DNA of 46,743 nucleotides from Microcaldota archaeon (GTDB lineage: Archaea; Micrarchaeota; Micrarchaeia; Micrarchaeales; CABMGC01): positions 1 to 46,743 of the forward strand of contig JAJZLN010000014.1 in NCBI GenBank assembly GCA_021803425.1, given 5' to 3'. The notes beneath the pieces are model-generated. The model was not told where the DNA came from. It saw nothing but the letters and a program-made list of their open reading frames with translations, and did not search any database. The position numbers and the translations under genes are program-made. Position 1 is the first letter of the stretch, and every line of letters starts with the position of its first letter. This document shows, one piece after another, positions 2 through 23,511 of the stretch.

Positions 2-1480
2 GTTGGAATAAGCTATGACTCAACTTCACAATCTGCAAGTGCGTCTCTGACATCTGGAAATTATGGCCTGCTGCTGCAGAAGAGTGCTGATTCATTTGCG
101 TATCAGAGCGGCACCGCAGCGCTTAACACGCTTTTCAAGTATGAGTACAACTCAATGCTAAGGAAGGACAACTTCATTTCAAACTTCACGCAGTACATGC
201 AATACCTCATGTCTAACGGAATGCTCCCAAATGTACCTCCGGGATCCAGCGATGCAAGGCAGATATCAAATATGATGGGCAGTCTTACCTTCTCTGCATA
301 CAATGACAACATATCGGCGGTTACGGGCACAGGCTCCACTTCAGTCAACATGATCGAAACAACGCCCCAGATTTCGCAAACAAATCCCTATTCAATATCA
401 ATAAAATATTCAGAGTATCTGAGGATAAATTCTTCTTCAGGCACATATTCATTCACGATACCTGTCAATGTGTCAATACCGCTAAACAACACTCCTGACC
501 TGTTCTTTGCGCAGCAGGGCATATACCGACCGATAAAATTTGCAGGTACATCAGGGCTTGCTACCGTGATCGGCGGAGACTATGCAACATATGGAAACAC
601 TAGCGGTTTTGTATACGGTACAGTCTATGCAATACCCAGCCCTACGTCATGCTCGTTTTCCGCAATACCATCTTCATTTCAATCCCCTCCATACAGCACG
701 CAGCTCATAATAGTAACTCCTGATGCTGATAAGATAACATCTGGTTGCCCTGGCCTTAGTGCATATGGCGGACTGATAACAGACAATGCAATGCCAAATC
801 CAGATATTAATGCATACCTTGTCTATAATGCATTGACTTCAAATGTGCTGCAGTACCTTGAAACAGGCCAGCATGCGCTTCTTTACGGCCCTGCCCTTAC
901 CACACTCAACATCACTAATCTGATAAATGCTGTAAACTCAAACAAGTATTTTGCTTCTCCGTTTGCGCCATCCTACATCAGCCGCACAGAAGGCGATTTT
1001 CAGAATCAGTCTGCAGAAGGAATGTACACCTTCTCGCTTCAGGACAGCCAGGCCCTTAGCTTCAACAGCCTTTCACAATACAATCTGCAGTCTACAGAGA
1101 CTCAGGCTTCCGTGGTTGGGTATACTGTTGCAGCATGGGTTTATCCAACATCTCAGAATGGAATCATAATCTCAGACAGGGGCTCGGGAACGGGGCACGG
1201 GCTAATTCTTGGAATAGGCAATGTGCTTGAATGCGGAGGCATGCCTGGAAGTTTTTTCTTCGGTGACAACGGCAATGGGGTAGGATTGGGTTCGAATACA
1301 ATATGGCAGTATCCAATGAATAGATGGTATTTCGTTGCAGGCACGTTCAATGCTCCAACAGGCGGTTCAATATCCAGTTCAGATTTCAATTTATACATAA
1401 ACGGCGTGCCTTCGGCCAAATCGTCATGGTGCAATATCGGTTCAGATACCGCACCGCTTACTGGTTCGGGTGGCATGTAA
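2..1480 (+). CDS. Large secreted/surface protein with LamG (concanavalin-like) domain, 5' partial; open from window start, ends at in-frame TAA
   Basis: Frame 2 is open from base 2 to the TAA at 1478-1480; Ser/Thr/Asn-rich; LamG-like segment (VVGYTVAAWVYPTSQNGIIISDRG...WYFVAGTFN...LYINGV). Confidence 0.75.
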   Translation, partial: VGISYDSTSQSASASLTSGNYGLLLQKSADSFAYQSGTAALNTLFKYEYNSMLRKDNFISNFTQYMQYLMSNGMLPNVPPGSSDARQISNMMGSLTFSAYNDNISAVTGTGSTSVNMIETTPQISQTNPYSISIKYSEYLRINSSSGTYSFTIPVNVSIPLNNTPDLFFAQQGIYRPIKFAGTSGLATVIGGDYATYGNTSGFVYGTVYAIPSPTSCSFSAIPSSFQSPPYSTQLIIVTPDADKITSGCPGLSAYGGLITDNAMPNPDINAYLVYNALTSNVLQYLETGQHALLYGPALTTLNITNLINAVNSNKYFASPFAPSYISRTEGDFQNQSAEGMYTFSLQDSQALSFNSLSQYNLQSTETQASVVGYTVAAWVYPTSQNGIIISDRGSGTGHGLILGIGNVLECGGMPGSFFFGDNGNGVGLGSNTIWQYPMNRWYFVAGTFNAPTGGSISSSDFNLYINGVPSAKSSWCNIGSDTAPLTGSGGM

Positions 1481-1546
1481 ATCGGCCCAACTGCTCCATT
1501 CACAACGTCACAAGGAGGAGTCCCTTTCAATGGCCTGCTCTCAAAC

Positions 1547-3232
1547 ATGCAGGTATACAATTCTGTCCTTTCGCAGCAGCAGATATATCATCTATACCAG
1601 GAAGGGATAGGGGGCGTTCCAATATCAAACACAATGCTATTGGGCTGGTACCCTTTTGATGGAAATCTGAATGATTACGGCGGAAACGGCTACACTGTCA
1701 CATCGCAGGTTCCGGCAAACTTTGTGGTGCTGCCTGGATATGTGAGAGATGGCATCCTCACTGCAAACGCTTCTCAGTATTCATTCCCAATTCCGGGGCT
1801 CGAGAATTGCAACACAAACATCCAATGCGCCAATTATAACACCCCCCATCTTTACTTGGGAGGCATGCCTTTGGGCATAAGCAACGGCGGGATGTCTGCT
1901 GCATACTTCAACGGTCAGACAAGCTACTTTGAGCAGGGTGCAGGATTCAATTCATTCATGTCGGCGTCGCAGCCTTTTTCGATGTCAATATGGGTTGATC
2001 CATTTTCATTAAATGGTGTAATAATAAATGAGCTCGGCCAAAGGCAGGAGTTGCCAGGTACATGGCAGGACACATTCATGGAGCTTTATAAGGGAAATGT
2101 GTATGTGAATGTATGGACATCCGGAGGCAACGTATGTAATCGAATAGGAAGCATACCTGCCGGACAATGGAGCAACATAGTCCTTACTTATTCAGGAAGC
2201 GGTTATTCTTTATCAGGTTACATAAATTATGGTGCGTCAAATACTGTGCATTCAGTCGTAAGGGCAGTGCCTCCTCCTGCAAACAGCATGTTCTATCCGC
2301 TCGGGCTCGCAGCCCCTACAACTTATTGCGGCTCGGAAAGTAACCCTCCCGGCGCTCCGCCATTCTACGGATATATGTCGAATTACCAGGTATATGACAC
2401 TGCCCTCTCTCAGCAACAGGTTTCCCAGCTCTATTCAGAGGGATTGTCTGGAACACCAGTTGCCCCTGGAAATATAATTGGATGGTGGCCCCTCAACGGA
2501 AACCTTAATGATTATACGAGCAACCAGAATACTGGAGTGGGAAATTCTTTGTCTTTCGCATTTTTGCCGACAAATTATGGGCAGTATTCAACAACACAGT
2601 CTGCTTCACAAAATTCGGTCGGGCTTAGCAATCCATCAGCCACTGAGAGCGAGTGGCAGGCGATGGGCTTTCCCACACAATCCTCTCCTCTCGTGTTCTG
2701 GAATGTGACTGCATGGGTAGTTCCATCGGAAATTTCATCGCCTCCATCATCGCCTACTGTAACCCCCTCAAGCGCTGTTGCAAACCAGCTTGGTGGCTGG
2801 TACTCTGGAATAGTGGGGGGAGACCAGCAATGGAATTTTGCAACCACGGGTCCTATACTATATTATTCAGGATCATTCAATCATTATTTTCAAGCTCAGC
2901 CCTCGTTCTTCCCAAATACCCTAAGCATGCTCAACAACAACAATCCAGTACTGCCTGTGGGCTATACCGCTGTAACATCAATGTATCTCAGCGGAACATA
3001 TAACTTTGAGATAGCGGTTGATGATGACATGGAGGTTTACTATCGCCCTATTTCGGGAGGTTCATGGACGCAAGTGTTCGGCGGCGCTGCGTGGCCGTCA
3101 GGCGGAGAAGCGACTACGAAATACGGTCCTGTAAGCGTAACATTTACCTCAGGCATGTACCAGATTGCAGTAGTCTACCAGAACATAGAGTATGCCGGAG
3201 TAAGCGAATTCTCAATGTCTCCACAAAACTGA
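1547..3232 (+). CDS. LamG-repeat surface protein continuation (same frame as upstream ORF), C-terminal PA14-like segment
   Basis: Two repeated LamG-end/start modules (VYNSVLSQQQIYHLYQEG...GWYPFDGNLNDY and VYDTALSQQQVSQLYSEG...GWWPLNGNLNDY); same frame as 2-1480, separated only by the TAA. Confidence 0.7.
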   Translation: MQVYNSVLSQQQIYHLYQEGIGGVPISNTMLLGWYPFDGNLNDYGGNGYTVTSQVPANFVVLPGYVRDGILTANASQYSFPIPGLENCNTNIQCANYNTPHLYLGGMPLGISNGGMSAAYFNGQTSYFEQGAGFNSFMSASQPFSMSIWVDPFSLNGVIINELGQRQELPGTWQDTFMELYKGNVYVNVWTSGGNVCNRIGSIPAGQWSNIVLTYSGSGYSLSGYINYGASNTVHSVVRAVPPPANSMFYPLGLAAPTTYCGSESNPPGAPPFYGYMSNYQVYDTALSQQQVSQLYSEGLSGTPVAPGNIIGWWPLNGNLNDYTSNQNTGVGNSLSFAFLPTNYGQYSTTQSASQNSVGLSNPSATESEWQAMGFPTQSSPLVFWNVTAWVVPSEISSPPSSPTVTPSSAVANQLGGWYSGIVGGDQQWNFATTGPILYYSGSFNHYFQAQPSFFPNTLSMLNNNNPVLPVGYTAVTSMYLSGTYNFEIAVDDDMEVYYRPISGGSWTQVFGGAAWPSGGEATTKYGPVSVTFTSGMYQIAVVYQNIEYAGVSEFSMSPQN

Positions 3233-3254: not shown

Positions 3255-4250
3255 TCACGGAGCTGCCAGTGAGGAGAACAATCCTCCCATTACTGTTGAC
3301 ACTATGAAGAATATTATGAGCCCCAGGACGATGAAGACCGGCATGTAGCGTATGCCCCTTATCGTAGCTCCTGACGTTATAGAGGATATTATGAACGACC
3401 CGAATCCGGTAATTATGATTATTGCGGCAACTGAAAATATGTAATATCCCTGCGGAGTAATAAGGGGCTTGCTGAGTTTTACGAATGATATGCCTATGGA
3501 AGGGAGGTTTGAGAGGCTGTTTACCGATATCTTGGACCACACGTTAGATGTCACCGTAATCATCTGGTTCGTAAGCCCGTAAAGTGTAGGCGCACCTATG
3601 AGTGCGGCGAATGCTATGAATATTGTATACATGAAGAGCTGGCCGGCGACTTCCTTCTGCACTATCTGCTGCCCCCTCAAATCCTTGGCTATCTGATTGA
3701 GCAAATCTGCCATGCCTCCTCCATACTGCTCTGCCTGTATTATGACCCGCACCGTTCTCTTGAGCACCACCGACCGGTATTTTGCAGCAAGGTTGTTGAA
3801 TGCGTTTGCCATTGTCTCCCCGGAATACAGCTGCTTTCCGAAAAGGCGTATGTCGTCCGAGAAATATTTGAATTCCGGTCTCACTGCCATGTTCATTGCC
3901 ATGGATAGTGATACGCCGCTTCGCATATTCGCTGCAGTAAGCTGGAGGTAGTCTGGAAGCACTTCCTCTACAAAGCTCTTCCTCTGTTCAATCATGAGTT
4001 CAAGATAAGAATAAAGCATCACTTCATACATTACGCTCATGCCCATTCCGGCAATGAATGCCAGTCCAAATTGCATGGAAACGAAAAGCACTAGAGAGAA
4101 TGAAACAAGCACGGTTATTATAATCCATCCAATTATCGCTATTCCTATGAATGTGTTTGCTGTTGTCTTAATGCCGGCAAGGTCAAGCTCATCTGATATG
4201 AATCTAGCAACATTCCTTCCAACAAGCCTCTCAAAAACTATCACAGCCAT
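3255..4250 (-). CDS. GspF/TadC-like type II/IV pilus assembly membrane protein
   Basis: GspF-type helical domain (LPDYLQLTAANMRSGVSLSMAM...LYSGETMANAFNNLA...AEQYGGGMADLLNQIAKDLR) plus TM segments. Confidence 0.82.
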   Translation of the reverse strand: MAVIVFERLVGRNVARFISDELDLAGIKTTANTFIGIAIIGWIIITVLVSFSLVLFVSMQFGLAFIAGMGMSVMYEVMLYSYLELMIEQRKSFVEEVLPDYLQLTAANMRSGVSLSMAMNMAVRPEFKYFSDDIRLFGKQLYSGETMANAFNNLAAKYRSVVLKRTVRVIIQAEQYGGGMADLLNQIAKDLRGQQIVQKEVAGQLFMYTIFIAFAALIGAPTLYGLTNQMITVTSNVWSKISVNSLSNLPSIGISFVKLSKPLITPQGYYIFSVAAIIIITGFGSFIISSITSGATIRGIRYMPVFIVLGLIIFFIVSTVMGGLFSSLAAP

Positions 4251-4254
4251 AATA

Positions 4255-5274
4255 TCACGTTGCGAATGAAGGCCTCGATGATGACACCATCTTCAGGAAT
4301 ACGAACTGTAGGAACGCAAGCCCGACCACAGCAAGTATCAGGGTCTGGTTGCTTATCGGGAATATGCTTATGAAAGTAGACATTATCGATGCAACCGCAA
4401 GGCCCATGCTCGGGAATATGACCCCGAATAGCATGTAGAACATTGCAACAGCATTCAGCCTCTGTCCGTATCTCCTGAGCTCTATGACCCTCTCCTGGCT
4501 CGCTTCGCTTATGACTTCCTGTATGGCTCCTATCACATCTGATCCCACTTTTATGCTTGTGCTTGCCTGGAGCATCAGCTTCTTGAACGTTTTAGACTTA
4601 GACTTTGCGCTTACCTCGTCTATAGCCTGCTCCATCGGCATGCCCAGCTGCACCCTGTCTATTATCTTCTCGAACTCCCTGCTCGCAGCCCCGTATCCAA
4701 CGCTTACCGTAGCCATCGCATTGAAAAGAGGTATGCCTGACCTCATGCTCACGATCATGTCCCTTGCCGCGTACAATATGTCCTTTTCAACATCATTGCC
4801 TATGCTCCTTACCTTGTTCATCGGATATGCCACAAGCGCATTGAACGACATCATGTAGACCACTATCGCTATCAGCGGAGCCAGTATCAACAGCTTCTGC
4901 AGCGCGATGTAAAACAATATGCCTGAGACAACTCCTCCAATCACAGCGAAGATCAGCGCCCTAGTTTGGCTCTGCGCCACATACTCCTCGGGCTTCATCT
5001 TTATGCCTATTTCTACCAGTGCCGGCCCAAGATCCTTCTTCGAGCCTGCGACTTTCGATGCGTATGTGCGTTTGGCAGACGCCTGCACCGTAGTATTTTG
5101 TACCGCGTCATTCTGCTGCACTGCTGCGGCAGTATTCGCTTCAGTCGAAGACGTTGAGTATATAGGCTTCGGTTTTATCGTGAAGAACAAGAATTTTTTC
5201 GGCTTTGTGAATCCTACTATCCTTCTTCCAATATCTTGTTTTTTGTTTCCAAACATATTGCTTACCCTACACAT
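4255..5274 (-). CDS. GspF/TadB-like type II/IV pilus assembly membrane protein (start may be the internal ATG near 5256)
   Basis: GspF-like domain (AARDMIVSMRSGIPLFNAM...LGMPMEQAIDEVSAKSKS...IKVGSDVIGAIQEV) and flanking TM helices; adjacent to the second GspF gene. Confidence 0.8.
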   Translation of the reverse strand: MCRVSNMFGNKKQDIGRRIVGFTKPKKFLFFTIKPKPIYSTSSTEANTAAAVQQNDAVQNTTVQASAKRTYASKVAGSKKDLGPALVEIGIKMKPEEYVAQSQTRALIFAVIGGVVSGILFYIALQKLLILAPLIAIVVYMMSFNALVAYPMNKVRSIGNDVEKDILYAARDMIVSMRSGIPLFNAMATVSVGYGAASREFEKIIDRVQLGMPMEQAIDEVSAKSKSKTFKKLMLQASTSIKVGSDVIGAIQEVISEASQERVIELRRYGQRLNAVAMFYMLFGVIFPSMGLAVASIMSTFISIFPISNQTLILAVVGLAFLQFVFLKMVSSSRPSFAT

Positions 5275-5884
5275 TCAATTTTGAGGTTATCTCCTTCAAT
5301 CTGCCTTCCCTGATCATGTATAATCCTCTTTGGAACTCATCCTTGGGCAGTACACCCCTATTTTTCGCAAGCCCCTTAATTTCAATAATTATTATCGACA
5401 TCTGTTCCTTGCTGAATGATCCCGAATCGATGCCTCTGCTTATTTTCTCAAGTTCGCTTATCTGGTCCTGCAGCGACAGATTTGTTAGAATAAGCTTGCT
5501 TTTGCCGCTCCCTGTTTTAATATGCATTGAAAAAGTGTTTTCAGCGGCAGAAATAAGCTCTTTAAGCTCCTTTGCAACAACCTCCTTTTCTCTCGATACG
5601 TCTATGCTTTTGAATCTGCCCTGCAAGCCTGCGCCAGCAGGCGGGCTTCCAGCATCATGTTTCGTCGTTTTTGAGGCGCTATCCGAGTTTGCGCCCTGCG
5701 GCATTTTTCCCTGCTCCATATCAATGCTGTTCACATAATTTATTACTTTAAGCGCATCACCGCTGTCGCAATCAAGTATCCCTATCTCCGGGCCAAGTTC
5801 GTATATGTCTATGGAAATAGACTTCATCTCTGTGTCATACGCCTCGCAGCTTTTTATAAATTCTACATATTCATTGTAATCCAT
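5267..5884 (-). CDS. Hypothetical soluble protein in pilus-assembly operon
   Basis: 205-aa ORF tightly packed between ATPase and GspF genes on the same strand. Confidence 0.7.
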   Translation of the reverse strand: MDYNEYVEFIKSCEAYDTEMKSISIDIYELGPEIGILDCDSGDALKVINYVNSIDMEQGKMPQGANSDSASKTTKHDAGSPPAGAGLQGRFKSIDVSREKEVVAKELKELISAAENTFSMHIKTGSGKSKLILTNLSLQDQISELEKISRGIDSGSFSKEQMSIIIIEIKGLAKNRGVLPKDEFQRGLYMIREGRLKEITSKLNV

Positions 5885-5893
5885 ATCTACACA

Positions 5894-7399
5894 TCATAGC
5901 ATGTCATTTGTAAACTTCACTTTGTCCGCAGCAAGCTTCACTATCTTATCCCTGTCCTTGTAGTACTGCGCTATAACGTTGCCTGCCTCGTCTACTCCCG
6001 TTATGTTATTTTCTATCATCCAATTCAATACCGATATCTTCTCCTGCACCTCATCCATAAGCTCCTTGTACGTGTATCCTCCATACAGCGCTATTATTTC
6101 GGCAAGCCTTGTCATCTCCGCTATCTTTCCGAATGAGTCGCTCTTTATGTTCCACCTGTACAATACGTTGGCATCTCCCGTATTCGTCATCTCACCGAAT
6201 TCAAGCGTTCTCCTTAATCCGAGCCTCCTGTGCCTGAACAGCGTCACTATGCCTCCCACGGAATTCAGAAGTATCTTCGGCAGCTCTATCGGGGGATTTG
6301 TCATTCTTATTACGGTATCCTGCACATTGTCCGCGTGTATCGTGCCGTATACTGCATGTCCTGTGTGTATTGCCTCGAAAAGCGTCTGTGCATCCCATTT
6401 GGTCCTGATCTCTCCGACAAGTATTATATCCGGCCTCTGCCTCAATGCGTTAATCATTAGGTTATAAAGGCTTATCTCCCCCTTCCCTTCGGGATTCGGC
6501 TGCCTTGTGAGCATAGGCACCCATTGCAGAAATTTGGGCAGAGTAAGCTCTCTTGTCTCTTCAATTGATATTATTCTGTGGTTTGGGGGCATGAAGACGC
6601 TCATCGCATTCAGAAAACTAGTTTTTCCGCTTGCTGTTCCTCCTGATATAAGCACGCTTATCTCATTCTGTATGCATGTCCATATTATTGCCGCGATCTC
6701 ATGCGAAACCGTGTTGTTTGCCACGAGTGCAGGCATGGTCCACGGATTCTTAGAGAATTTTCTTATTGTTATCGTATTCCCTCCCTGCGATACTGGATAG
6801 AGCGTGGCATTTACTCTTGATCCGTCGCTGAGTTCGGCGTCCATCAGCGGAGCAAGCGTGTTTATCTCCCTTCCGACCCTCCTTCCTATCTGCTCTGCGT
6901 CATCATATATCAGTTCTTCGTTGATGAACTTCAAGTTCGATTTGCACCATCCATATTTTTTGTGGAATACCCAAACTCCCTCTTTCGACGAATTTACTGC
7001 TATCTCTTCTAAGTTATCGTCAGCAAGTATGACCTCGAGGTCTCCAAGTCCAAGCATTATGTTTATTATGTACGCTATGAGTATGGCCTTTGTTTCAGGA
7101 TGCGTGCCTGGCAGGTACTTGTCTATTACAATAGAAGCCGCGGCAGTGTATTTTACTGTAAGCTCCCGGACATAATTTGAATCGGCTATCTTTGTTGGGT
7201 CTATGGGCACTATGCTCAGGAGTTCCTGCCTCAGAGAAAGTATAAGTATCCTTGTCGCTTCGCCAATGCCTGGCATTGTTATGTCATAATTCGGTACAAA
7301 TTCTCCCCTGTCAATTATACGTATGTCTGCCGTTATGCCGTGCGCATTAAGTTCATAGGAAGCAAGCACCTTTTCAATATGTTTATCTTCTCCAGCCAT
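5894..7399 (-). CDS. GspE/TadA/FlaI-VirB11 superfamily secretion ATPase
   Basis: Walker A SGGTASGKTSFLNAM, Walker B RPDIILVGEIR, HTGHAVYGTIHAD motif. Confidence 0.93.
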   Translation of the reverse strand: MAGEDKHIEKVLASYELNAHGITADIRIIDRGEFVPNYDITMPGIGEATRILILSLRQELLSIVPIDPTKIADSNYVRELTVKYTAAASIVIDKYLPGTHPETKAILIAYIINIMLGLGDLEVILADDNLEEIAVNSSKEGVWVFHKKYGWCKSNLKFINEELIYDDAEQIGRRVGREINTLAPLMDAELSDGSRVNATLYPVSQGGNTITIRKFSKNPWTMPALVANNTVSHEIAAIIWTCIQNEISVLISGGTASGKTSFLNAMSVFMPPNHRIISIEETRELTLPKFLQWVPMLTRQPNPEGKGEISLYNLMINALRQRPDIILVGEIRTKWDAQTLFEAIHTGHAVYGTIHADNVQDTVIRMTNPPIELPKILLNSVGGIVTLFRHRRLGLRRTLEFGEMTNTGDANVLYRWNIKSDSFGKIAEMTRLAEIIALYGGYTYKELMDEVQEKISVLNWMIENNITGVDEAGNVIAQYYKDRDKIVKLAADKVKFTNDML

Positions 7400-7408
7400 T
7401 TATACAAC

Positions 7409-8614
7409 TCACTTTCCCTTCCCTATGTTATTCACTTTATCTTCGAACTTAGATACCTTTTCGCCAAGCTCCAAAGTCGATCGCGATGTGTCCTTAACCC
7501 TTGATCTTACCTTTGCTTTAGCTGCACTGGGATTTACCTTAGATTCTTTTGCATTTTTCGCTTCCTGCCTGAGCTTTGACATCTCCATGATTATCCTGTC
7601 CTTCTCTTTGGTTATCTCACCAAGCTCTTTCTTTATCGCAACAAGGTTGTCATTGAGCGTGCTCAACTCTCCTATGTCTTTCTTCATATTGCTTACCCTT
7701 GCATTCAACTCCCTTATCTGCGCCTCTGATCCTACTTTAAGCCTGTCTATCTCAGAGGACCATCGCGTCATTTCATCAAGCATCGACATGCCGCTTCGCT
7801 CCATGAGCTTCTTGGTATTTTCTGTCTTTCTCTTGTAATCCACGTTAAGCTTGTCATATTCGCGTATTTGCCTGTCTTCAAATGCAAGTATATCCTTAAG
7901 CTGATCATGCTTCTCTCTCATGCTTTTTGATATGTCTAGGGCATTTTTCCTGTATTGGTATACCATGCTCTCAAGCGATTTCGAGAGGTCGGCCATGTTC
8001 TTCTCATATGCTGCCAGCGAGTCGTGTATCTCCTGCGTTATGGCCTTTGCATTGTTTGTATCCACTGAGAATGAGGATAGCTCTACAGCATATTTCTGCG
8101 TAGCCTCAAAATCCTTCTTTGCAGTTTCAGATATTTCCGCTATCCTCTTCGATCGCGATTCCATCTTCTTTCCGTATCCGTCTATATAACTATCAAGTTT
8201 GTTGAGTTTATCCAATATTTCGCTCACATCCTTGTATTTCGTTTTGAATAGCTGGTCTATGCTTGCGGCAGATTTGTTGAATGCATCAATGCGTGAAGCT
8301 ATCTGTGTGACTATTGACGACTGGGCGTCTATTTCTGCCTCAATCTCAATCTCTTCAGCCTGCTTTGCTTCCGTCCCTGCAATGCCCTGCCGTCCCGGGG
8401 TCGTCGGCGCTATGTATAATTTACCTCCCTTATGTACCAACTTAACAACGCCTGCTTTCTCAAGCACGCTGGCAAATTCAAGTATGACCGACTCGCTCAT
8501 ATGCAGTGCGCCAACAAGTACAGGCAGGCTGGATTCTCCATGCTCGTTTATATACGCCAATAATGCGTCTATGCTGGTCTTTACCTCCTGGACCGCCATC
8601 CAATCACTCACCAT
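7409..8614 (-). CDS. Coiled-coil protein with N-terminal winged-helix-like domain
   Basis: N-terminal helix-turn-helix-like region (LPVLVGALHMSESVILEFASVLEKAGVVKLVHKGGKLYI) then a long charged coiled coil; first gene of the minus-strand operon. Confidence 0.75.
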   Translation of the reverse strand: MVSDWMAVQEVKTSIDALLAYINEHGESSLPVLVGALHMSESVILEFASVLEKAGVVKLVHKGGKLYIAPTTPGRQGIAGTEAKQAEEIEIEAEIDAQSSIVTQIASRIDAFNKSAASIDQLFKTKYKDVSEILDKLNKLDSYIDGYGKKMESRSKRIAEISETAKKDFEATQKYAVELSSFSVDTNNAKAITQEIHDSLAAYEKNMADLSKSLESMVYQYRKNALDISKSMREKHDQLKDILAFEDRQIREYDKLNVDYKRKTENTKKLMERSGMSMLDEMTRWSSEIDRLKVGSEAQIRELNARVSNMKKDIGELSTLNDNLVAIKKELGEITKEKDRIIMEMSKLRQEAKNAKESKVNPSAAKAKVRSRVKDTSRSTLELGEKVSKFEDKVNNIGKGK

Positions 8615-8804: not shown

Positions 8805-9191
8805 ATGGCATTGATGGAAAAAATAAGCAGGTATTATTTCATTGTAATGGCGCTTATAGGCGTATCGATATTCTTCGGCCAGGTGGCTGCCCAGTCCTCT
8901 GCCGTTGCCGTTACAACTTCCACGTTGTGTGGCATAATAGGCGGAGTGCGATCGGTGGTGGGAGTCATAGCGCTTGTGCTTTTCATAGTTGGTGGAGCAC
9001 TTTATGCAGTAGCGCACATGATGCCTGCTGCAGGAAATCTCAGGGGAAACGTTCAGGGATGGTCCTTGGGAATGATAGTTGGAGGGATAGTCGGGCTAAT
9101 AATAGTGCTGATTGCTCCTGCTATAATAGGTGCAATAGCCGGTGTCTCGCTTAGCGGATCCGGATCTATAACAAGTCCAAGCTGCATCTGA
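8805..9191 (+). CDS. VirB2/TrbC-like pilin (signal peptide plus two hydrophobic helices)
   Basis: 128 aa; N-terminal signal-like segment ending QVAAQSS, then TM-short polar loop-TM (VIALVLFIVGGALYAVAHMMPAAGNLRGNVQGWSLGMIVGGIVGLIIVLIAPAIIGAI), the classic VirB2/TrbC architecture. Confidence 0.72.
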   Translation: MALMEKISRYYFIVMALIGVSIFFGQVAAQSSAVAVTTSTLCGIIGGVRSVVGVIALVLFIVGGALYAVAHMMPAAGNLRGNVQGWSLGMIVGGIVGLIIVLIAPAIIGAIAGVSLSGSGSITSPSCI

Positions 9192-19625: not shown

Positions 19626-21737
19626 ATGATAGCTGCTATTGCAATACTATCTCTTGGCGCAGTAAATGCCCTGATTCCGATAGTTATAGTGCTTGTCCTT
19701 GTAGTAGCTGCCGCAGGATTGAACAGGGGGTACAGCCTATTTAATTTCTTGGGGCTTTCTACTTTTGCGGGTATAAATCCTGGAGGCAAGGGGTCTCTAG
19801 CAGGAAAATCGGCGTTTTCAGTGCTCCTTCTTTCTTCCCCATTGGGAAGCAAATTGGGTTTAGGCAAAAGGCTGCGAGCCAGATATAAGAGATCTAAATT
19901 TGCAAGGAAGCGTGCATTAAGTAAGGAAAATCGCAGGATGGCTAAGCAATCTGTTAAGGAACTTAGAAAAGGTACGTTTGTAGAAAAAAATAATGCTGTC
20001 CAAATAAACAAAGGCAATGGAACAGAAAAACAAAAGTCACAAAGCATTCTTACAAGAAAAGTTTCTGATTTATTAATGAAAAATTCAGTTGCAACCAGGC
20101 TAGGTTTGGGAGCGACTGCATTAAAAACAAGGGGCATCAGCAAGTTTGAAAATGTGTCAAGGCCAAAGTTTACCCGGGCTGCAAGAGAATCTACGGTAAG
20201 GGAAAGAACGATTAAAAATGAAGGCATGCTGTCCAAATTAAAAGGATCGAAGAAGGCAAAATCTGTTTCGGCTCTTAAACAATTGGCATTTTTCGGTGCT
20301 CCAGCAGCATTTATTGGTGCAAGAATCACAAAAAAAGGAATAGAAAGGCATGAAAAAAATAAAAAAGCATCCAAGGAAATAATAAAAGAATATGAATCAG
20401 ACAAAAAATCCGGTGGAAATATTTCAAGCATCGTTGACAGATATAAAAAAATACAAGAAGATCAAGGAAAGCTTACAAGAGACCAAAGGACGGCAATGAA
20501 AAATGAGATGTTCTCAGAACTGCAGAGCAAGAGCAAGATTGCAGAAAAGCAGCAGGCCAAACACAATATTGCTACAGCCACTATTCTTGGCTCTGCTAGA
20601 GTTATAAGCGAGGCAGCAAGAGGTGCAAGCGGCAAGGCAGCCGGCTTGGAAAACGAAAGCGGCTTCAGTGGTGCATATAAGGCTGCATCAGCACACTTAA
20701 AGCGCAGCATGTCTGAGATGGGCACTAAGGAAACTTCTGTAGATCCTGCAAGGCTTGGAAGGGTTGCATGGAATATGATTGGCATTGGTGCATTGTCCAT
20801 TAAAAAAGGCAGTTCATTGAGTCCAGATGATATAAAAAGTTCTTCAAGGAGGGATATGTTTCTTCATGCACAATATACAAAGGTAAAAAATGAGAAAGAT
20901 CCTGAAAAGCTCAATCAATACCTTCAAAACATAAATAAAACTGAAGAACACTTTGAAAGATTAGCTTACTCTGCAGATAAAGCAGCACAGATTGAAGCTA
21001 CAAAACCGGCGCAGAATGCAGAAAGAGAAAATTTATACAAATACATTGCTGCAGCTAACAATCTCAAAGCGGAGATTTTGAAGAATAGGAATACTAGTAA
21101 AAGTGACAGGTCAAATATAGTAAGCGAATTTTTTGATAGAATACCTGAAAAGGAAAGTCAAAATAAAGCGCTTAAAGAAGACAAAGAAAATTTAGAAAAA
21201 GCGTATTCGAAAGCTACAAATGATAAGGAAAGAGAGATGTTGGAAAAACAGATTGAAGAAAAGAAATTACTTATTAATATAAATGAATCTGAAATAAAGG
21301 CCGATACCTCTGCTATTTTAAGTATTGCCCCAACAGAAAACATAAGTGGTATAAATCACGAAAAACTTTATAACTTTTATAAGGGCGGAAAATCGGCTTT
21401 AGATCTTGATGCTGAAAGAAAAGAAGCACTAATCCAGTATTCTGCCGCAAAAGACGACAAGCCTCAAAAAATTGCACTTAATCTTATCAGTGATGTCTCA
21501 AAAATAGCGGAAAATAATGCCTCTGGAGAGCGTGAGCTGAGAAAGCAGGCAGTCAGAGCACTCGAAATCAATGTAAATAGCGAGGATAGGGATATAAGCA
21601 CCGCTTCAAAATTGGGCCTCATAAATTCCGGCCTGGATCTTAACAGATTCAGCATGGATGATAACAAAGAGGTAAGGACGGCAGCATGCAAAGCCCTCGG
21701 ATTAAAAATTGATCCTAGAACCAAAATGCCCATATAA
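19626..21737 (+). CDS. Membrane-anchored, highly basic/coiled-coil protein with HEAT-like C-terminus
   Basis: One N-terminal TM, then a Lys/Arg-rich helical region; C-term ...RELRKQAVRALEINVNSEDRDISTASKLGLIN...DDNKEVRTAACKALGLKI resembles HEAT repeats. Confidence 0.75.
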   Translation: MIAAIAILSLGAVNALIPIVIVLVLVVAAAGLNRGYSLFNFLGLSTFAGINPGGKGSLAGKSAFSVLLLSSPLGSKLGLGKRLRARYKRSKFARKRALSKENRRMAKQSVKELRKGTFVEKNNAVQINKGNGTEKQKSQSILTRKVSDLLMKNSVATRLGLGATALKTRGISKFENVSRPKFTRAARESTVRERTIKNEGMLSKLKGSKKAKSVSALKQLAFFGAPAAFIGARITKKGIERHEKNKKASKEIIKEYESDKKSGGNISSIVDRYKKIQEDQGKLTRDQRTAMKNEMFSELQSKSKIAEKQQAKHNIATATILGSARVISEAARGASGKAAGLENESGFSGAYKAASAHLKRSMSEMGTKETSVDPARLGRVAWNMIGIGALSIKKGSSLSPDDIKSSSRRDMFLHAQYTKVKNEKDPEKLNQYLQNINKTEEHFERLAYSADKAAQIEATKPAQNAERENLYKYIAAANNLKAEILKNRNTSKSDRSNIVSEFFDRIPEKESQNKALKEDKENLEKAYSKATNDKEREMLEKQIEEKKLLININESEIKADTSAILSIAPTENISGINHEKLYNFYKGGKSALDLDAERKEALIQYSAAKDDKPQKIALNLISDVSKIAENNASGERELRKQAVRALEINVNSEDRDISTASKLGLINSGLDLNRFSMDDNKEVRTAACKALGLKIDPRTKMPI

Positions 21738-21839: not shown

Positions 21840-22682
21840 TTGGCTGACAAGAACGAGATCCTCTCTGTCGTGCTTTTTGGATCAGGAATGGTCATTTTAC
21901 TGATAATGGGCATGCTGCCTTCAGGCCAGCTGCTTTTCAATGTAATTGCATTAATATTCTCAATAATATGCGTTTCCGTTTCAGTGCTGATGTTTGCGTC
22001 AAAAGATCTGTTCTACATGTTTGAACCTATTATGAAAATGAAGAACAAAGTTGCAGTTATAAATTCAGAAGAACCGTATTATATGTCACCAAACGGAGCT
22101 TCAGTCCTTATAAGGACCGATACAGGTGTATATGCCACATCATTTGTAAAAATCCCTGTCTACAGCTCATCGACAAACATGACGGATGAGGAGAAATTCA
22201 ATTTTTCCGGACTATTTGCAAGGCTTGTGGGACTAAGCAAGGATCCGATGAGGATATCCTCGCAGCTTTACATGATAAACAAGGATGAATACATATCAAG
22301 GATAAATGCCAAGCTCAATGAGGTACAGGAAAGATACAATACCTTGCAGAATGACAAGTCCGCTCAAAAAAGCGCACTTGACAGGGCAAAAGGCGAGGTA
22401 ACGATGTGGCACAATCTCCTTGACAACGTTTCAAGGGCCAATTCCCTTTCGCTTTCGGCGTATGCTAGCATAACTGTCATCGGGGGTACAGAAGATGAGG
22501 CAGTAAACCTTGCTTCGTTAAAGGCAGATGAAATTGCGGTTGCAATAAGCACCACCCTGGGGGTCATGGCCACTGTAGCATCAGGAAATGAAATACGCGT
22601 GTTCATAGAGCCCGATTATCTTCTGCCTCCTGGCACGGTAGGCGGCATGATGAAGTCGAAGGCCTTGCAAAGCAATACATAG
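21840..22682 (+). CDS. VirB3/PrgI plus VirB4-N-terminal-domain-like protein (TTG start)
   Basis: Two N-terminal TM helices followed by a soluble alpha/beta domain; colinear with the next gene product (GTEDEAVNLASLKADEI...SGNEIRVFIEPDYLLP). Confidence 0.6.
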   Translation: MADKNEILSVVLFGSGMVILLIMGMLPSGQLLFNVIALIFSIICVSVSVLMFASKDLFYMFEPIMKMKNKVAVINSEEPYYMSPNGASVLIRTDTGVYATSFVKIPVYSSSTNMTDEEKFNFSGLFARLVGLSKDPMRISSQLYMINKDEYISRINAKLNEVQERYNTLQNDKSAQKSALDRAKGEVTMWHNLLDNVSRANSLSLSAYASITVIGGTEDEAVNLASLKADEIAVAISTTLGVMATVASGNEIRVFIEPDYLLPPGTVGGMMKSKALQSNT

Positions 22683-22689
22683 TGGTTGC

Positions 22690-23511
22690 ATGGATGAAAA
22701 AACAATAATATACCTTGCTGGGTCGCTCGCCATAGCATTCCTCACGCTTATTACAGATTTCAAGTTCGGGCTTCCAGGGCTTATAGCAGCGCTTTTGTCG
22801 TTTTTTGCCATAATCATAATACTCATGCTGGCATTTGCAGATTTCCTTATATACCCAATTTTCACCAAGATGCTGAACATTGCAACAATACCTGCTAAGG
22901 ATTATATCATACCAAAGACGGGCGATGCCGTGATCAAGTACACAAATGGCATATACTACGCTACTGGATACCTTACGGCCAACATATACGGATATACCTT
23001 TGCAGCAGAGCAGATAGAGGATGCTGACGCTGCAATGGCAGCTGCTCCTGAAAAGTGGGAAAGGGCCATAATGAACATAAAATTCCCGTTCAAGTTCAAT
23101 GTAATTTCTGTTGCAGAAGACATACAGAAATACAGGGATGAGATAGAGACCAAGCGGGGGCTGCTCGAATTTCAGTATTCAAAGGAAACTTCATCTACAA
23201 ATCCTAATCCAATGGGACTTGAAGCCATACAGCGCCAGATAAACGTAATGCAGGCGCGGATAGATCGGATAAGCCAAGGCGAAAAGCCCCTAAACGCCCT
23301 GATGTACATTGAAACAACTGCAGTTGGCGTAAGCGAGAAGGAGGCAATAGACAACCTGTCAAACCAGCTTAATGAATTGCAGACAGTATTCAACATAATG
23401 GATATAAGCATAACCAGGGTTACTGGCAGCGAGGTTTACCATCTTTTCAAATTCAATTACATGATACCTAGCTTGAAGGAATTATCAAATATTTTCCAGT
23501 CGCAGGGTTGA
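22690..23511 (+). CDS. VirB3/PrgI plus VirB4-N-terminal-domain-like protein, paralogue 2
   Basis: Two N-terminal TM helices; GVSEKEAIDNLSNQLNELQ...TGSEVYHLFKFNYMIP aligns with the upstream paralogue; abuts the VirB4-type ATPase. Confidence 0.62.
   Translation: MDEKTIIYLAGSLAIAFLTLITDFKFGLPGLIAALLSFFAIIIILMLAFADFLIYPIFTKMLNIATIPAKDYIIPKTGDAVIKYTNGIYYATGYLTANIYGYTFAAEQIEDADAAMAAAPEKWERAIMNIKFPFKFNVISVAEDIQKYRDEIETKRGLLEFQYSKETSSTNPNPMGLEAIQRQINVMQARIDRISQGEKPLNALMYIETTAVGVSEKEAIDNLSNQLNELQTVFNIMDISITRVTGSEVYHLFKFNYMIPSLKELSNIFQSQG

Follow-up and report, generated by a model that had tools for sequence, protein, structure and literature searches.

A probable VirB2/TrbC-like pilin and the order-conserved, T4SS-like operon around it in Micrarchaeota

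The pilin gene and its product

The open reading frame at 8805-9191 (plus strand) begins with ATG and encodes 128 amino acids. It lies in a stretch of 46,743 nucleotides (the window), contig C6 of an assembly of 880,901 bases that is 93% complete, and it is followed by a long run of genes on the same strand (Table 1). The N terminus of the protein carries positive charge first and then a hydrophobic run up to GQVAAQSS; a cut site is predicted between VAA and QSS, which would leave a mature pilin of ~99 aa. The hairpin consists of two long hydrophobic helices, the second rich in Gly and Ala, joined by a short polar basic loop (AAGNLRGN). An AlphaFold model based on an alignment of 41 natural sequences placed helices at residues 3-28, 34-72, and 77-111, with a pLDDT of ~80 to 92 across the hairpin. 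The signal-like segment, the two hydrophobic helices, the GNLRGN loop, and the Gly/Ala-rich second helix named in a preliminary description of this frame are thus all present in the sequence and the model. That description had also held that the protein lacks the class III signal peptide of type IV pilins, and the class III (type IV prepilin) motif was not found in the window pilin. By pattern matching, 37 of the 41 family members have a signal peptidase I-like site ([AVSTL]-x-A), and 4 of the 41 show a loose KR-G/A pattern. These results confirm the earlier observation on the frame.

Differences between the pilin gene and four orthologs at codon positions 1/2/3 numbered 31/21/70, 43/25/68, 42/29/70, and 39/28/69. 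The dominance of third positions in all four comparisons indicates that the frame is translated and under purifying selection and is not a chance ORF. Homologs of the pilin were detected in 59 of the 61 genomes searched (its own genome and relatives).

Two cysteines that the preliminary description overlooked flank the hairpin: C42, where helix 1 begins, and C127, close to the C-terminal end. Among the 41 family sequences, C127 is invariant and C42 is at least 90% conserved. Since both residues are expected to lie outside the membrane, a C42-C127 disulfide tying the two ends of the pilin together is plausible.

The operon around the pilin

The conserved gene order runs from one or more pilin genes through an optional gene for the 618-aa protein, the gene for the 245-aa protein, six genes for polytopic proteins, an optional gene for the basic protein, two genes for proteins with TM and soluble parts, and the ATPase gene to four further genes. 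Followed to the limits of the contigs, this order was seen in most of the 18 neighbourhoods that were read (two families) and in 80 named loci, and the block usually ends at Top6B/KH genes.

Table 1 Features of the pilin locus (positions are those of the window unless a locus label is given)
Feature	Position	Strand	Evidence
VirB2/TrbC-like pilin, 128 aa	8805..9191	+	Profile match, alignment, AlphaFold, codon divergence
Polytopic membrane protein, 618 aa, fast-evolving	9250..11106	+	Gene neighbourhoods
Polytopic membrane protein, 245 aa, between pilin and six VirB6-like genes	11147..11884	+	Gene neighbourhoods
CedA/VirB6-like polytopic paralog 1 (B6a)	11948..13249	+	Shared motif, neighbourhoods
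CedA/VirB6-like paralog 2 (B6b), N-terminal hairpin homologous to pilin	13246..14475	+	Pilin HMM, neighbourhoods
CedA/VirB6-like paralog 3 (B6c)	14472..16127	+	Shared motif, neighbourhoods
CedA/VirB6-like paralog 4 (B6d)	16135..17304	+	NF041796 match at 16819-17088
CedA/VirB6-like paralog 5 (B6e)	17301..18398	+	Shared motif, neighbourhoods
CedA/VirB6-like paralog 6 (B6f), matched by the lone VirB6-like protein of the C19 system	18403..19530	+	Neighbourhoods, sequence match
703-aa protein, N-terminal TM segments and long basic tail	19626..21737	+	Neighbourhoods
Two TM helices and a domain, candidate VirB3/VirB4-N-like subunit	21840..22682	+	hhalign E = 3e-12 to neighbour 22690-23511
N-terminal TM helices and alpha/beta domain, candidate VirB4 N-terminal-domain subunit	22690..23511	+	AlphaFold, Foldseek
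VirB4/CedB/CedD/TraC-type ATPase domain protein, 503 aa	23518..25029	+	Pfam and NCBIfam
Conserved soluble protein, 98 aa	25032..25328	+	Neighbourhoods
124-aa protein, CxxC...CxxC and two TM helices	25321..25695	+	Neighbourhoods
Coiled-coil protein, 262 aa, possible C-terminal winged helix	25721..26509	+	Neighbourhoods
Membrane protein, 809 aa, last of conserved block	26681..29110	+	Neighbourhoods
Fused and four-fold pilin hairpins	L044:4313-11188, L045:8459-16583		

Two members of the run are found at varying frequency or place. The 618-aa protein is present in some Micrarchaeota only, with ~24 to 36% identity among relatives, and it matched no Pfam family. Its DDE and FLSGINPY motifs recall GT-C glycosyltransferases, an unconfirmed likeness; it could be a glycosyltransferase of the pilin. 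The 703-aa basic protein is accessory, and its place differs between genomes.

On the minus strand, a divergent block (3255-8614) encodes a TadA-type secretion ATPase, two T2SSF/TadC-like membrane proteins, and coiled-coil proteins. It neighbours the pilin gene within the genus and at a few loci elsewhere, and it may act as a partner type IV pilus in the way that Ups does for Ced. Beside the TadC genes lie two large ORFs at 155-3232 (plus strand), judged by eye to be LamG-like; similar LamG proteins have been tied to pilus loci in Mia14 (PMC5498576).

Channel and ATPase candidates

The six polytopic proteins are paralogs that share the motif GIxLRxxxxTRxxGG. The CedA model NF041796 had a sole match in the genome, to B6d (E = 1.9e-6, 26 bits against an equivalog cutoff of 330); being local and weak, the match suggests a relative of CedA and no equivalog. 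Across this genome and 60 relatives the model had 15 matches, spread over 14 genomes; 14 of the 15 matches lay 3.7 to 8.3 kb from the operon's 22690 gene, and among the control genomes it matched Sulfolobus acidocaldarius only. The pilin HMM matched the N-terminal hairpin of B6b in 24 loci at an E value of ≤1 (best E = 1.4e-6), and the same hairpin relation between CedA and CedA1 was reported by Beltran et al. (PMC9905601). An hhalign comparison of the pilin profile with the B6f profile gave no match, the homologous hairpin sitting in B6b, and a PDB sequence search with the VirB6-like profile returned nothing relevant.

The ATPase matched DUF87 (1.5e-14) and HerA/VirB4 models, and its best NCBIfam matches were CedD (2.2e-19), TraC (TraC-F; 2.7e-17), and CedB (4.4e-17). 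A Ced-type CedB/CedD ATPase would be expected to have its own TM segments and N-domain; here the ATPase is a stand-alone protein, with TM and N-domain-like parts in separate genes. The 21840 and 22690 proteins are paralogs of one another (hhalign E = 3e-12). The AlphaFold model of the 22690 protein (pLDDT 79) consists of N-terminal TM helices and an alpha/beta domain; in a Foldseek search of the PDB with this model, chains of the R388 TrwK/VirB4 complex took ranks 1 to 3, 5, 6, and 14, as weak matches (E = 0.05 to 0.4, TM 0.3 to 0.4; top match E = 0.05, TM 0.38). A Pfam scan of the 22690 family matched no VirB4 N-domain model, hhalign of the 21840 and 22690 N-domain proteins against the R388 VirB4 sequence found nothing, and a PDB sequence search with the 22690 profile gave nothing relevant. 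In Sulfolobales, the VirB4 N-domain is shared out between CedB and CedD (PMC11868833). This sharing and the Foldseek ranking make a split VirB4, composed of two TM/N-domain proteins and a free ATPase, a reasonable but unproved reading of the models.

No relaxase was found with PF03432, the one relaxase model tested, and the model for the VirD4 coupling protein (PF02534) had only a 16-bit, subthreshold match, on another contig.

Conservation of the operon

Micrarchaeota MAGs or cultures are the source of the named operon loci; depositors filed some of the MAGs under Marsarchaeota and two simply under uncultured archaea. One of the sources is "Ca. Micrarchaeum sp. A_DKE" (complete genome, NZ_CP060530.1, L095), the "Ca. 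Micrarchaeum harzensis" of PMC8975820, and another is a "Ca. Mancarchaeum" MAG (L118). By these relatives and the 881-kb size of its assembly, the genome belongs to the Micrarchaeota, which bears out the earlier attribution of the pilin to a DPANN archaeon.

A pilin gene lay upstream of the first polytopic gene in 40 of the 55 loci that have at least 2.5 kb there, and several of the others were cut by the fetched range. Exceptions to the order are L128, L129, and L131, where the ends are rearranged, and isolated pilins, such as that at L039. At those three loci the 26681 and 25721 genes are inverted, and the genes from 21840 to the ATPase were not detected within the fetched range. In one subclade (L092:241-3422), the operon comes after a gene for a basic protein, next to two genes resembling ribosomal proteins L18 and S5, and no pilin was found adjoining the operon within the fetched stretch.

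Of 148 genomes in the class, 118 had a match to the pilin profile and 121 a match to the 22690 profile; among the 83 near-complete genomes, each profile matched 76. Both families were present in 114 genomes and neither in 23, with 11 genomes discordant (Fisher P = 5e-17, a value that ignores the relatedness of the genomes and hence overstates the evidence). Across the phylum, 180 of 197 genomes gave relatives of the ATPase, a count that mixes large and minimal systems. We considered a mobile element and rejected it, since the block keeps one site beside the Top6B/KH genes in most loci. What the sequences show is the pilin family, the linkage of the pilin with CedA/VirB6-like and VirB4-like genes, and how broadly it occurs in the class.

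A minimal second system lies in the same genome at C19:10807-14680 (also L050/L051/L002). It encodes, in order, a pilin-like protein of 121 aa, a VirB6-like protein of 341 aa, a protein of 239 aa related to the 21840 and 22690 proteins, an ATPase of 370 aa, and a coiled-coil protein of 244 aa; the last, downstream of the ATPase, is a weak counterpart of the 25721 coiled-coil protein of the large operon. Each core part of the large operon recurs here in a single copy, which independently picks out the pilin, VirB6-like, N-domain, and ATPase genes as a functional set. Many genomes carry tandem pilins. At L044 and L045, single pilin hairpins occur in the C-terminal part or middle of secreted-type proteins of 250 to 1284 aa, and one 632-aa protein ends in four consecutive hairpins; such fusions would suit the display of adhesive domains on a filament.

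Family assignment of the pilin

The preliminary description had putatively assigned the protein to the VirB2/TrbC family. PF04956 (TrbC/VirB2) was the top Pfam match of the window pilin (E = 5.7e-4), at 20.5 bits, below the gathering threshold of 27.9. The model matched 19 of the 41 family members at an E value of ≤0.01; the L037 ortholog, scored singly, reached 32.2 bits, above gathering, and PF18895 (T4SS_pilin) also matched five of the 41. At E ≤ 1e-3, PF04956 had matches in 53 of the 148 class genomes versus 3 of 14 control genomes, and 20 of the 148 have an ORF above its cutoff. PF04956 is noisy at E ≤ 1, where it matched in 12 of the 14 control genomes, and single pilin homologs also match other Pfam families by chance. 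A genome-wide PF04956 search of the pilin's own genome listed only the second pilin (contig C19) and not the window pilin; the other window membrane proteins scanned gave no TrbC match.

Comparison by hhalign with single R388 sequences gave a weak match to TrwL in the hairpin region (E = 0.009) and none for VirB6. Foldseek with the pilin model, uninformative for a two-helix protein, returned chance matches only and no solved pilin. The NCBIfam scan of the 41 pilins likewise gave chance families only, PDB sequence searches with the pilin and its profile gave nothing relevant, and tblastn of a high-scoring ortholog against plasmids gave no match. By protein sequence alone, a distant relationship to VirB2/TrbC is supported for the family and suggestive for the window protein. 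The operon context, in which the pilin is linked to CedA/VirB6-like and VirB4-like genes, counts as stronger evidence than the pilin sequence. No holin or S-layer family appeared in the profile searches. The earlier interpretation is supported by these data; the larger fact that it missed is the order-conserved, T4SS-like operon around the pilin.

Discussion

We conclude, with a probability of about 0.78, that the product of 8805-9191 is the major pilin of a machine related to conjugation systems (Ced/Ted/T4SS-like), which Micrarchaeota carry on the chromosome. Judged from its genes, the operon appears to encode a previously undescribed T4SS/DNA-import-like machine, with the pilin usually its first gene.

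Filament formation and cargo we infer as follows. By the biology of VirB2, CedA1, and TedC, Sec would insert the pilin and type I signal peptidase would cut it after VAA, as in TedC. The pilin would then sit in the membrane as a hairpin, its basic loop facing the cytoplasm and later the pilus lumen, and C42 and C127 would pair outside to link its two ends; if so closed, it would be an analogue of the head-to-tail cyclic TrbC/TrhA pilins. The VirB4-like ATPase, the two TM/N-domain subunits, and the six-protein VirB6/CedA-like channel would extract the pilin, which may polymerise into a thin, lipid-associated filament, and the channel would pass DNA or other macromolecules between the micrarchaeon and neighbour or host cells. 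Since no relaxase was detected and the chromosomal site is fixed, domesticated exchange or import is favoured, and plasmid-style conjugation is unlikely. The machine could serve DNA import or exchange, like Ced, or exchange between symbiont and host, the role put forward for the T4SS of Patescibacteria (PMC12102498, PMC12857230).

Like the Ced/Ted systems of Thermoproteota (PMC9905601, PMC11868833), the proposed machine has a two-helix VirB2-like pilin (TedC/CedA1) with a predicted TedC-like signal peptide, a CedB/CedD-type ATPase, and a CedA/VirB6-like channel with a pilin-homologous N-terminal hairpin; both are chromosomal, and a relaxase was found in neither. Ced/Ted systems have one or two CedA proteins, whereas the Micrarchaeota operon has six VirB6/CedA paralogs, an apparently split VirB4 (two TM/N-domain proteins and a free ATPase), two conserved pilin cysteines, and tandem and fused pilins. 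The T4SS of Patescibacteria (PMC12102498) likewise belong to ultra-small, probably symbiotic cells, with VirB2-like arrays near virB4 and virB6 and a relaxase mostly absent, but they are of the MPF-FATA type, in contrast to the Ced-like components, split VirB4-like subunits, and lack of a VirD4 above cutoff in Micrarchaeota. With the conjugative R388 Trw system the operon shares VirB2-, VirB4-, and VirB6-type parts, TrwK/VirB4 chains holding the top Foldseek rank for the 22690 model; it differs in being chromosomal, with no PF03432 relaxase and no coupling protein above cutoff. Outer-membrane T4SS parts are not expected in an archaeon. We file the locus as a VirB2-like pilin with a variant of the Ced/Ted/T4SS-type machines, not as a Ced system.

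The same machine could serve as a symbiont-to-host conduit or an apparatus for the exchange of effectors or nutrients, not of DNA, and we give this a substantial chance, somewhat short of even. It would fit near-universal presence in the class despite reduced genomes, tandem pilins resembling the VirB2 arrays of Patescibacteria (PMC12102498), pilin hairpins fused to large secreted domains, and the parallel of an episymbiotic patescibacterium in which a T4SS is essential. Filaments have been seen at Micrarchaeum-host contact sites (PMC8975820), and ARMAN cells have pili-like and synapse-like links, with ARMAN-Thermoplasmatales connections among the published contacts (PMC4110969). However, the filaments were attributed largely to the host by their authors, no effector is known, no VirD4-like coupling protein scored above cutoff, and the nearest named components are the Ced DNA-import proteins. 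Tentatively, and with slightly less assurance, we suggest that a near-universal, vertically inherited machine, in which six VirB6-like parts form a hetero-oligomeric channel, VirB4 is split, and a disulfide closes the pilin, might build contacts for the exchange of DNA or other macromolecules between these symbionts and their archaeal hosts.

The pilin might instead form no extracellular pilus and belong to a membrane channel complex as one of its small subunits, the role suggested for CedA2. The hairpin is in essence a membrane protein, a related hairpin lies within the polytopic channel protein B6b, and no filament has so far been tied to the pilin; the cleavable-type signal peptide, the tandem arrays, and the large N-terminal extracellular-type domains nevertheless suit a surface polymer, and we consider a channel subunit unlikely. 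Far less credible is that the protein serves as pilin for the TadA/TadC (type IV pilus-like) genes at 3255-7399: these genes are adjacent and divergent in the genus and a few further loci, but the pilin lacks a class III signal peptide and has two helices where a type IV pilin would have one, and in most relatives its conserved neighbour is the VirB6/VirB4 block, not TadA, so we rejected this assignment on signal peptide and synteny. An archaeal type IV pilin was rejected as well, since the class III signal peptide and the single N-terminal helix are both missing in the alignment and the AlphaFold model. It is just as improbable that the protein is holin-like, S-layer-associated, or another small membrane protein whose PF04956 match is compositional. 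The subthreshold score of the window pilin, the matches in control genomes at E ≤ 1, and the chance families of single homologs would allow this, but the remaining window membrane proteins scanned gave no TrbC match, and the excess of class over control genomes at E ≤ 1e-3 and the operon context speak for the VirB2-like pilin.

A full-text literature search of incomplete coverage returned no description of a T4SS, a Ced-like system, or a VirB2-like pilin for Micrarchaeota or other DPANN, and a prior mention is possible. In Mia14, Golyshina et al. described type IV pili but no T4SS and speculated on conjugative elements in its genomic islands (PMC5498576), and a 2025 review of T4SS does not mention DPANN (PMC12857230).

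Micrarchaeota are tiny, probably host-dependent archaea, and how they connect to their hosts is a long-open question; the imaged contacts had no gene assignment (PMC4110969, PMC8975820). The pilin operon in the complete genome of the cocultured "Ca. Micrarchaeum harzensis" names a protein to seek in such filaments. The machine proposed here would bring into a DPANN class the Ced/Ted-type systems that the papers found describe so far from Thermoproteota, and, set beside the T4SS of Patescibacteria, it would point to a solution that ultra-small symbionts have in common.
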